A DNA stretch of 64,000 bases, taken from NCBI RefSeq assembly GCF_900107035.1, contig NZ_FNOJ01000003.1:124001-188000 (forward strand), given 5' to 3'. The notes under the pieces were generated by a model, which worked only from the letters and a program-made list of their open reading frames with translations, did no database searches and was not told the DNA's origin. Below are positions 36,035 through 62,278 of this stretch, in pieces (position 1 is the stretch's first letter; each line of letters starts with the position of its first letter). Position numbers and translations under genes: made by a program. The DNA is from Alicyclobacillus hesperidum (GTDB lineage: Bacteria > Bacillota > Bacilli > Alicyclobacillales > Alicyclobacillaceae).

Positions 36035-36076
36035 AAAACTGGCCGCCCCATCTAGACGGATGGAACGGCCAGTTTT
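36035..36076. terminator. Bidirectional terminator downstream of the repeat-protein gene
   Basis: AAAACTGGCCG (36035-36045) pairs with CGGCCAGTTTT (36066-36076), and the minus strand continues into a run of seven T. Confidence 0.88.
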
Positions 36077-36115: not shown

Positions 36116-36790
36116 TTATTGATAGTATCCGAGATCCTGCGCAATGTGTTGACGGACGACTTGCGGGTTCGTCCCGAATTGGCTAAAAGTGCCGACAGCC
36201 CCTTGTGCCGACGGATAGTTAGCACCGTGGAATGCGCCTGCTTGCTGGCTGGTCATCGCACCAACCTGGTTATGCAAATCCTGTTGGATGTGCTGTTGAA
36301 CCATCTGTGGGTTCGAACCAAATTGGCCAAGCGTGCTGTGTGAAGCCGGATGCTGAGCATAGCCGTAACCAAACGTCTGGCTATGAATTTGTGCCGGGAC
36401 ACTTTGCATCACTTGATGCGTCACACCCGCATTTTGTGCCTGATTCATCGCAGCATAGCCGTATCCATGCAGATCTTGCTGGATGTGCTGGCGCACCATT
36501 TGCGGGTTGCTACCAAATTGGCTGAGCGTGCTGCCCGTTGGTACTTGTGGACCAGCATATCCGTAGGATGGTTGTGCGTATCCAAGATCCTGTGCAATAT
36601 GTTGTTGGACAATTTGCGGATTCGTCGCACCCGCGTGCATCGGTGACGACGCGTACGAATACCCAGGATACAAATCTTGCTGGATATGGCTTTGCACTTC
36701 TTGCGGATGGGTGCCAAATTGGCGCAGTGTGTTGAACCCTTGCCCCATAACGTTACTCTGGCCTGCGCCAAACGGTTGGTTCATGTGCAT
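36116..36790 (-). CDS. QFGxNPQ-repeat protein, Gln/Tyr-rich, unknown function
   Basis: A 224-residue protein with no recognised family. It contains five copies of a unit of up to 19 residues with consensus (L/F)xQFGxNPQxVxQHIxQDL, at about residues 22-40, 56-69 (short), 89-107, 154-172 and 202-220. Linkers are rich in Gly, Tyr, Gln, Ala and His (GYGYA, PSYGYAG). No signal peptide, cysteine or membrane segment. ATG 36790 is 12 bases after AGAGGGAG; a TTG at 36802 abuts that site. Flanked by its own terminator and by the trxB terminator, so transcribed alone. The composition suggests a self-assembling or spore-coat protein, which is inference. Confidence 0.8.
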   Translation of the reverse strand: MHMNQPFGAGQSNVMGQGFNTLRQFGTHPQEVQSHIQQDLYPGYSYASSPMHAGATNPQIVQQHIAQDLGYAQPSYGYAGPQVPTGSTLSQFGSNPQMVRQHIQQDLHGYGYAAMNQAQNAGVTHQVMQSVPAQIHSQTFGYGYAQHPASHSTLGQFGSNPQMVQQHIQQDLHNQVGAMTSQQAGAFHGANYPSAQGAVGTFSQFGTNPQVVRQHIAQDLGYYQ

Positions 36791-36886
36791 GCCAAACGTC
36801 AACTCCCTCTTTGGTTAATGGGTGCTTCGGGTAAAGTATGCGCGAGCGCCAAGGTGGCCATGCAGGCGTCAAAAAGAAGCAACGGC

Positions 36887-36910
36887 AAAAGGCTCGCTGC
36901 GAAGCGAGCC
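36887..36910 (-). terminator. Terminator of trxB
   Basis: GGCTCGC (36891-36897) and GCGAGCC (36904-36910) with a short loop, followed on the minus strand by TTTTGCC. Confidence 0.8.
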
Positions 36911-36939
36911 CCTCGCTGAAGTATAAGCATGCCGTAGGT

Positions 36940-37899
36940 TTAAGCGTTCAGTGTGACCGACCAATCTTCCACAGCATGTCCCTCTAAAAACTTTTCCGCA
37001 TCCATCGCCGCTTTACAGCCCGAACCAGCCGCTGTAATCGCCTGCCGATAACGCGAATCCATCACATCGCCACACGCAAACACTCCAGCCACAGACGTCT
37101 CGGAGGTATTGCCCTTCGTGACAATATAGCCAACCGAATCCAATTCCAGCTGACCACCGAGAAACTCGGTATTCGGCCGATGTCCAATAGCGACAAACAC
37201 GCCGTCAGCTTCGATTTGTTTGCGCTCGCCCGTCTCGTTGTCGACGACCTGCAAACCCGTTACTTTACTGCCGTCCGAGAGGACCTTTTCCGACGTTGCA
37301 TTCATGACAAAACGAATTTTTTCGTTCGCTCGGGCGCGATCTTGCATGACCTTCGACGCCCGAAGTTCGTTGCGCCTGTGCACAATCGTGACTTCCGAAG
37401 CGAATTTCGTCAGAAACGTGGCCTCTTCCATCGCCGAATCGCCGCCGCCCACGACGATCACGCGTTTATTGCGGAAAAAGAACCCATCACACGTCGCGCA
37501 AGTCGAAACACCGCGGCCAATCAACTCACTTTCGCCTTCGATGCCCAACATTTTTGCAGAAGCGCCCGTAGCGATAATCAGCGCATCAGCCGTATAGACG
37601 CGATCCTTGTCAACCGTGATGGTGAAAGGCCGCTTTGACAAATCGACGGAAGTCGCCTTACCGCGGGCAAATACCGCACCAAACTTCTCCGCCTGTTTCT
37701 TCATCGACTCCATCAACTCAGGACCCATAACGCCATCCACGAATCCTGGGAAGTTTTCCACTTCTGTCGTGAGCGTCAGTTGCCCACCCGGCTCCTCGCC
37801 TTCAAACACGAGCGGTTCCAAGTTCGCTCTTGCGGTATAAATGGCCGCAGTATAACCAGCTGGGCCTGTACCCAGAATGATCAGCTTTCGATGTTCCAT
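36940..37899 (-). CDS. trxB: Thioredoxin reductase
   Basis: TrxB, 319 residues, a low-molecular-weight NADPH- and FAD-dependent reductase. FAD motif GTGPAGYTAAIY, redox-active CATCDG near residue 135, NADPH motif VVGGGDSAMEEA, and C-terminal VFACGDVMDSRYRQAITAAGSG. An acyl-CoA synthetase-like gene and then a thioredoxin-like gene lie just upstream on the same strand. Confidence 0.96.
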   Translation of the reverse strand: MEHRKLIILGTGPAGYTAAIYTARANLEPLVFEGEEPGGQLTLTTEVENFPGFVDGVMGPELMESMKKQAEKFGAVFARGKATSVDLSKRPFTITVDKDRVYTADALIIATGASAKMLGIEGESELIGRGVSTCATCDGFFFRNKRVIVVGGGDSAMEEATFLTKFASEVTIVHRRNELRASKVMQDRARANEKIRFVMNATSEKVLSDGSKVTGLQVVDNETGERKQIEADGVFVAIGHRPNTEFLGGQLELDSVGYIVTKGNTSETSVAGVFACGDVMDSRYRQAITAAGSGCKAAMDAEKFLEGHAVEDWSVTLNA

Positions 37900-41188: not shown

Positions 41189-41476
41189 GTGCAAAACAAT
41201 GAACAGGAACGGCACTCAGGTACTGGCATGTGGGGATTACTCGGACTCGTTGCTCTTCCCGTGCTCTGCTGCGGACTGCCGACTTTGATTGGAGCCCTCG
41301 GCGTAACGACAGCGGGTGCCGTTTTGGCGTCAGACCGCTATTGGATTTTGGGCGGCCTTGTCATCTTGATTGGCATTGTGATGTTCCTTGTATCACGCAA
41401 AGGCAAAAAGTCCGGGACAGATTCATGCTGTACAGTTCTTCCGAGCAAGGAACTACCACCGAAAGACAGTTTGTAA
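41189..41476 (+). CDS. Two-helix MerF-like mercuric ion transporter
   Basis: A 95-residue membrane protein with two hydrophobic helices (about 14-45 and 51-69). A vicinal Cys pair lies in the first helix (LPVLCCGLPTLIGALG) and another near the C-terminus (DSCCTVLP), the pattern of MerF/MerT, which relay Hg(II) to MerA. GTG 41189 follows AAAGGAGAT at 41172-41180. Position at the head of an operon ending in merA supports the role. Exact subfamily is uncertain. Confidence 0.7.
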   Translation: MQNNEQERHSGTGMWGLLGLVALPVLCCGLPTLIGALGVTTAGAVLASDRYWILGGLVILIGIVMFLVSRKGKKSGTDSCCTVLPSKELPPKDSL

Positions 41477-41488
41477 GGAGTGACGACC

Positions 41489-41830
41489 ATGCAGGACTTG
41501 AACATATCAGCACCCGATAGTACGGTTCAGACGGAGATTTACGCCAAGTTTTTTCACGGATTGTCGAACCCGACCCGGTTCAAAATCGTGGAGGCCTTGC
41601 TAAATCGAGAGATGAATGTGAGCCAGCTCGTGGAGGCTGTCGGTGCGTCTCAAAGCCAGGTGTCAAACCAACTTGCTTGTCTGAAGTGGTGTGGTTACGT
41701 GACATCGAGGCAAGAGGGCAAATACATCCTGTATCGTATTTCGGATGAACGTGTTCGTACGATCCTTCAACTGGCTAAGGAAATTGTCGCCGATAATGCT
41801 GAACACATCCGGTGTCGCACCAGGATGTAA
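41489..41830 (+). CDS. ArsR/SmtB-family metalloregulator
   Basis: A 113-residue winged-helix repressor with FFHGLSNPTRFKIVEALL, the recognition helix VGASQSQVSNQLACLKWCGY and the wing TSRQEGKYILYRIS. Cysteines in CLKWC and in the C-terminal IRCRTRM could bind a thiophilic metal, as in CmtR-like sensors. ATG 41489 is 8 bases after AAGGAG. It probably regulates the operon; no MerR gene is present in the window. Confidence 0.88.
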   Translation: MQDLNISAPDSTVQTEIYAKFFHGLSNPTRFKIVEALLNREMNVSQLVEAVGASQSQVSNQLACLKWCGYVTSRQEGKYILYRISDERVRTILQLAKEIVADNAEHIRCRTRM

Positions 41831-41836
41831 AAACGT

Positions 41837-42313
41837 GTGCAGATTGAACGTGCAACAGCGGCACCCACGGCAACGGGATCGCTGTCGGCGACTGCAGAGC
41901 AGACAAGCCAACAAACCTCTGCGACGGCTACCGGGTTGAGCGACCTTACATTTACCGATGTTCATGGAAAGCGCATCACGGTCAATCCCAATGAGAAGAC
42001 CGTGCTACATTTCATGACCTCGTCTTGTTCAGACTGTTTGCCGACGGAGACAGCATTGGCCAAGTTTCAGAACATGCCAGGCGTTCAACTGATTTCGATT
42101 GACGTGGAGCCTCAAGCGGACAATGCCAGCACGATTGCGCAGTTTGCACAGGTGGCAGGCAGCCACTAGCCTTATGTATTGGAGACGAATTCGTCTCTTC
42201 TCCAAAAGTTCCACGTGACGGAACTGGATACGGTCGTCGTGCTGTATCACAACAAGGTCATCTACGAAGGGGTTGTACCGTCAGAAGCCCAACTCAAGAA
42301 GGTGCTTGCATGA
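41837..42313 (+). pseudogene. Thioredoxin-like redoxin interrupted by an in-frame TAG
   Basis: From GTG 41837 the frame encodes a TlpA/redoxin-type domain (LTFTDVHGKRITV, the CxxC in FMTSSCSDCLP, LISIDVEPQ) and meets TAG at 42167-42169. The same frame then continues without a shift: PYVLETNSSLLQKFHVTELD, VVVLYHNKVIYEGVV (the redoxin cis-Pro end would be expected nearby) up to TGA at 42311, which overlaps the ccdA start as ATGA. Together these give a domain of normal length, about 157 codons. The N-terminus starts right after the arsR stop with no signal peptide or membrane anchor and a weak ribosome site. Either a point-nonsense pseudogene, two pieces, or TAG readthrough. Confidence 0.75.
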
Positions 42314-62248: not shown

Positions 62249-62278
62249 GGTAGCCCTCCCCCCGCGCCCCACGAGGAA

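Follow-up and report, generated by a model that had tools for sequence, protein, structure and literature searches.

Gamma-type SASPs, represented here by SspE, are the closest described counterparts of the protein reported in this study. SspE is a protein of about 85 amino acids (about 9 kDa) that carries an EFASE cleavage site. A study of A. acidocaldarius spores is said to have found no gamma-type SASP. In a published table sspE is given as missing in Alicyclobacillus and Kyrpidia, with Vyas et al. 2011 as the source cited (PMC3236038). A second paper gives the EIA sequence as the place where GPR cuts SASPs and mentions the hypothesis that gamma-SASP is an amino-acid reservoir (PMC8452069). 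The physiological role of SspE is described as not identified, and gamma-SASP reportedly does not bind the chromosome, in a third (PMC3003637). A term search of the A. acidoterrestris genome paper returned no mention of SASPs (PMC9713406). The second comparison is with the alpha/beta-type SASPs (PF00269), which are forespore core proteins, as we propose for the protein studied here. Unlike it, they are mostly 60-90 amino acids long and have EIASE or EIAGE sites in the three that were read (L112-L114), EIASE being carried by an alpha/beta SASP of the same genome.

The gene described here lies in a 64,000-nucleotide stretch of the Alicyclobacillus hesperidum genome, called the window here. Its product shares with SspE a Gln-rich composition without Cys or Trp, tandem repeats with a TNxQxVRQ core, a sigma-G-type promoter pattern and a spore-forming Bacilli host. 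It differs from SspE in its 224 amino acids, in lacking the EFASE site, in continuing after the core as QHIxQDL where SspE has QQNQQSA, in its many His and few Lys, and in being recognised by neither curated gamma-SASP model. The features of the locus are collected in Table 1.

Table 1. Features of the repeat-protein locus (window coordinates)
Feature	Position	Strand	Basis or remark
CDS, 224-aa repeat protein	36116..36790	minus	complete ORF; ATG at 36790, stop 36118-36116
Likely ribosome-binding site AGAGGGAG	36803..36810	minus	read from sequence
-10 element CATACTT, sigma-G-type promoter	36834..36840	minus	18-bp spacer
-35 element GCATG, sigma-G-type promoter	36859..36863	minus	consensus scan
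Repeat 1 QFGTHPQEVQSHIQQDL	36671..36721 (residues 24-40)	minus	reads HPQ
Repeat 2 AGATNPQIVQQHIAQDL	36584..36634 (residues 53-69)	minus	without QFG
Repeat 3 QFGSNPQMVRQHIQQDL	36470..36520 (residues 91-107)	minus	sequence reading
Repeat 4 QFGSNPQMVQQHIQQDL	36275..36325 (residues 156-172)	minus	sequence reading
Repeat 5 QFGTNPQVVRQHIAQDL	36131..36181 (residues 204-220)	minus	sequence reading
Second recurring element MTSQQAG, linker between repeats 4 and 5	36236..36256	minus	[MI]TSxQAG in 7/15 genus proteins
Terminator-like hairpin and T run 3' of the repeat-protein gene	36043..36059	minus	weak alone
14-pair hairpin between trxB and the repeat-protein gene, probably the trxB terminator	36885..36916	minus	hairpin scan
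trxB, thioredoxin-disulfide reductase, conserved neighbour, outside the system	36940..37899	minus	TIGR01292

The open reading frame singled out by the original prediction is a complete gene, which can now be placed on the minus strand where no strand had been given. A TTG codon at 36802 is an alternative start that would add four amino acids. The protein has a mass of 24.3 kDa and a pI of 6.5, contains 18% Gln, and has 15 His against 3 Lys and Arg in total, with a single Glu. It is free of cysteine throughout, as had been claimed, and a composition count found neither Cys nor Trp in this or any other of the 15 proteins of the genus. Against its two nearest orthologues the gene has dN/dS values of 0.091 and 0.024, and therefore the frame is a real gene under strong purifying selection. 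The region scanned for hairpins holds two with a T run resembling terminators, where 1.7 would be expected, and Rfam gave no match in the window at gathering scores. Elsewhere in the window (41189-42169), genes for a small CCGLP membrane protein, an ArsR-like regulator and a thioredoxin-like protein stand in a row, which by eye may be a metal-response cassette.

The protein had been called an orphan, and this did not hold. Of the family's 41 genomes, 28 give a match at E <= 1e-3, including all 15 of the genus Alicyclobacillus (its own genome counted). The closest named records are from A. tengchongensis, at 98% protein identity, and from A. sacchari, at 94%. Short forms of 80-132 amino acids occur in the same family (G016-G019, G023-G025, G034, G036). 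A profile built from seven of them matches, at E <= 0.01, 30 of the order's 59 genomes; every one belongs to this family, and the 18 genomes of the sister family give no match. Protein search and profile together reach 31 of 41 family genomes, with more distant relatives in other Bacilli; no member was found in the other ten (G020-G022, G028-G032, G035, G040). Since a match to the GPR protease occurs in all 59 genomes of the order, absence of the repeat gene is not simply loss of sporulation. All 15 genus loci, of which two (L032 and L033) come from named records, have trxB directly upstream of the long gene, and so do those of G026 and G027. The 15 further loci checked, among them those of short forms, lack this neighbour. 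No common locus of short and long forms was found, as trxB adjoins only long genes among the loci checked, and because of this the short forms may be paralogues.

Five copies of a QFGxNPQxVxQHIxQDL repeat had been claimed and five were found. At the DNA level these are only 55-78% identical, so they are old copies whose likeness has been kept at the protein level. The repeats persist in the orthologues with variable copy number, which a motif count puts at 1-2 copies in six genus genomes (G002, G003, G009, G010, G012, G014) and 4-7 in the other nine. The second recurring element of Table 1 is also present in G026, G027 and G129. It resembles LTAEQAG of an alpha/beta SASP of the same genome (L115); its reading as an alpha/beta-SASP-like element was dropped, as the window protein has no PF00269 match. 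AlphaFold2 gives a mean pLDDT of 36.8 with no residue at 70 or above, which suggests a disordered protein. The model does place helices on the repeats, as the original prediction of a short helix would have it, and does so at a confidence that lends the helix little weight.

The promoter region carries GCATG-N18-CATACTT at 36863-36834, 73 bp before the ATG. Sites were scored over 12 positions against GMATR-N17/18-CATWMTA, which we take to be the sigma-G consensus, and against patterns for sigma-E, sigma-F, sigma-K and sigma-A that we likewise assume; the literature search did not find the sigma-G consensus. A sigma-G-type site 67-78 bp upstream is the best site in all 27 family genes compared, from 26 genomes (a set without G033, G038 and G039, the last having no start chosen). 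One gene scores 12, twenty score 11, five score 10, and one scores 9, which is background level; among random 172-mers from these loci, 0.8% reach 11 and 7% reach 10. The sigma-G promoter expected of a gamma-SASP is thus present, as a pattern, in 26 of 27 genes at 10 or more of 12 positions, the orthologous regions being non-independent samples. In the same regions sigma-G has a mean z of 3.25 and a positional s.d. of 2.6 bp, against mean z values of 1.37 for sigma-E, 1.26 for sigma-F, 0.67 for sigma-K and 0.0 for sigma-A, with s.d. of 11-22 bp. Three genes scanned later, those of G016 and two of G017, score 10, 10 and 9, and the long G017 gene (9/12), whose start is doubtful, has no convincing sigma-G site.

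Such sites are rare in the window, where only five on both strands score at least 11, that of the repeat gene among them. Among 58 ORFs of at least 180 amino acids, the repeat gene alone has one scoring 11. A 12/12 site on the plus strand at 62276 has no gene directly behind it and was taken as chance. The positive controls were mixed, with scores of at least 11 in only 5 of 29 SspE genes of other Bacilli and in one of four alpha/beta SASP genes of the same genome. The conserved sigma-G-type pattern makes forespore transcription of the repeat gene likely and a mother-cell coat role unlikely, and so points to the spore core, not the coat. The original suggestion of a spore-coat component is therefore upheld in its link to sporulation and finds no support as regards the coat.

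A profile search of Pfam and NCBIfam, PF04259 and TIGR01442 (SASP_gamma) included, gave nothing above curated cut-off for the window protein. To this extent the original claim of no known family stands; what alters it is that the short relatives tie the protein to the gamma-type SASPs. G036 has a short form that the window protein detected (E 2.8e-8) and that then passes PF04259 at 32.5 bits (cut-off 28.4), though it stays below the TIGR01442 cut-off at 21.9 of 30.65; not having been picked for SASP likeness, it is the cleanest bridge. It is the only one of five short forms scanned to pass PF04259, G018 reaching 20.8 bits and G024, G034 and G016 giving no match. Part of a long G019 protein also passes this model, at 31.4 bits. 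The seven-short-form profile detects the window protein at E 2.5e-9, six of the seven having first been found using the window protein itself. It gives 44-180 bits with the 15 genus proteins, each above all 300 shuffles and each also above 300 repeat-preserving column permutations (for G012, where no repeat unit was found, the permutation equals a plain shuffle).

In the other direction, a home-made profile of 29 SspE proteins scores six of the seven Alicyclobacillaceae short forms above 400 of 400 shuffles, narrowly so for G024 and G025; for G016 one shuffle was higher. For repeat proteins, plain shuffles of this kind are a lenient null. In default mode the same profile is weak for G016 (E 4), G024 (0.12) and G025 (0.03). 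The short-form profile in turn finds the SspE gene in G259 (E 9e-4), G244 (7e-4) and G092 (0.006), which are three of the 91 genomes that PF04259 matches. Mixed proteins occur in three f4 genomes (G065, G111, G263; L159, L155, L156), the first repeat being SspE-like, GTNIEEVKRQNAQ or near, and later ones of the FGTNPQKVREEIAQEGGF type. Their genes have a sigma-G-type site of 11/12 at 57 bp, and the proteins may connect the two repeat types in evolution. A gene order common to them and canonical sspE was looked for and is absent, the f4 genes not being at the sspE locus. Column permutation of the two repeat profiles gave 0 of 3000, with units cut by motif patterns that share positions and so biased towards a match; the shuffle and permutation tests with the short-form and SspE profiles avoid this bias of unit choice.

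Several features of a gamma-SASP are missing. Searched directly with the SspE profile, the window protein gives no significant match (46 of 400 shuffles as high), and only 3 of the 15 genus proteins (G007, G008, G014) beat all shuffles. Repeats inflate such scores: a long relative also passes the unrelated Rex N-terminal model at 34.3 bits. Weak matches to STI1-HOP, YsxC, Rex, ribosomal L11 and the like were dismissed as mostly short matches multiplied by repeats, and the same caution applies to SASP_gamma. The GPR site E(F/I)A is absent from 14 of the 15 genus proteins, G008 having one EFATD; the A. hesperidum genome has a GPR gene and five alpha/beta SASP matches (PF00269) above cut-off. At 24.3 kDa, and 23.2-39.2 kDa across the genus, the proteins exceed the gamma-SASP size of about 7-12 kDa, while two short relatives weigh 9.1 and 12.2 kDa. 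We do not file the protein as a gamma-SASP outright because a curated-model match, a GPR site and a fitting size were each looked for and not found.

No canonical sspE was found elsewhere in the genus. PF04259 returned no gamma-SASP in the 15 genomes at E <= 0.01, and TIGR01442 (E <= 0.1) gave only weak matches in G004 (0.08) and G013 (0.04 and 0.07), the better G013 match falling within the repeat gene itself. Among 250 sampled Bacilli, PF04259 matches 91 at E <= 1e-4. In two of these (G021, G022; L038, L039) the match is to another Gln-rich repeat protein, AQFGHSYASNTGVQQVLQADHQ, which we excluded from the family; the SASP_gamma models pick it up, and its genus yielded no member of the family described here. 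Six sampled Bacilli (G116, G121, G163, G207, G229, G262; all but G116 inspected) have a match to the short-form profile in a place apart from their PF04259 gene, which makes the long genes paralogues at least in part.

Long proteins of the FAGTNPQQVRQ type occur in several other Bacilli families (f12, f14, f20, f23, f28). They are about 230-550 amino acids long and, like the window protein, have the GTNPQxVRQxI unit, in up to 13 copies, and Gly/Gln/Met-rich linkers (loci L149-L154, L157, L158, L160-L164; genomes G168, G129, G072, G163, G197, G103, G217, G178, G262, G052, G089, G121, G207). No fitting curated model was found for the four fragments scanned (G072, G129, G163, G121), and the promoter evidence is weaker for these genes than for the window gene. 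Their unit ends mostly in DIARE or DIAQE in f14, f23 and f28, which is GPR-site-like, and the unit of the f4 mixed proteins holds EIAQE or EIAEE. The window protein has HIQQD or HIAQD instead, which reads as the loss of a cleavage-like acidic end. Among the matches listed in the literature search, seen as titles and the starts of abstracts and with most subscription journals outside its scope, no paper describing these repeat proteins was apparent.

On the computed evidence, namely a conserved gene, a sigma-G-type promoter pattern, a repeat likeness traced by way of short intermediates and a lack of recognisable GPR sites, we read the repeat protein, with fair confidence, as an enlarged and diverged gamma-SASP-like forespore protein stored in the core. 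The gene would have a promoter of its own, used by sigma-G RNA polymerase in the forespore. The product, a presumably disordered Gln/Gly-rich chain without Cys or Trp and with tandem TNPQxVRQxI units, would accumulate in the spore core and serve mainly as an amino-acid store and filler. It would be broken down after germination, perhaps by proteases other than GPR or by a relaxed GPR. A store is the best fit for a disordered, Gln-rich forespore protein, and may not be the whole story because of the strong constraint and the missing GPR sites.

The protein could instead be made in the forespore for another job, such as binding membrane, DNA or an enzyme through its repeated helix, with the likeness to SspE being convergent or the trace of a very old homology with changed function. 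The failure of the direct SspE match and the lack of GPR sites would suit this, as would the presence of both a long-type match and a PF04259 gene in six of the genomes sampled, the different loci of short and long forms, and a purifying selection that seems tighter than a pure amino-acid store would require. Against it stand the short intermediates, which match in both directions, the mixed proteins of f4 and the column permutation, the last with its shared motif positions, and we consider such a job rather unlikely.

A scaffold of the coat or exosporium, made in the mother cell and assembling through the low-complexity linkers, is improbable. Coat genes are expressed in the mother cell under sigma-E and sigma-K, and Gly/Tyr/Gln low-complexity linkers and repeats of the kind seen here are common in their products. 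The -10 element CATACTTTA of the window gene, taken by itself, matches the sigma-K pattern CATANNNTA as well, and sigma-E has a slightly elevated mean score. However, across the 27 upstream regions the sigma-E and sigma-K matches are not strong and vary in position, while those of sigma-G are strong and fixed, and none of the 15 genus proteins has a Cys. That the frame is a chance low-complexity ORF and no gene has virtually no probability: its biased composition and low mean pLDDT could suggest as much, but the dN/dS values already refute it, and conservation throughout the genus and the fixed promoter position count against it too.

A bolder extension of the gamma-SASP-like reading is that the long repeat proteins do more than serve as stores and make up a matrix in the spore core, one that pH causes to condense or dissolve; more widely, they would be an overlooked long branch of the gamma-SASP superfamily in a lineage reported to lack sspE. 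We regard this as a long shot. The core pH is 6.4 before and 7.7 after germination. With 15 His and so few Lys and Arg, the calculated charge of the window protein shifts from about +1 to -3.6 between these values. Such a matrix would be near-neutral and cohesive in the dormant core and would dissolve at germination, replacing GPR cleavage. The proteins of G006-G008, whose calculated charge is negative before and after this shift in pH, speak against it.

If the gamma-SASP-like reading is true, the absence of sspE in Alicyclobacillus would be a matter of detection, and the genus would have a forespore protein of the superfamily in a long version that lacks GPR sites. Being an amino-acid store and being a GPR substrate, two supposed properties, would then be separated, and both would be testable in a genus of juice-spoilage bacteria. 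The finding also draws attention to the long repeat proteins of other spore-forming Bacilli, a class that has been little described.
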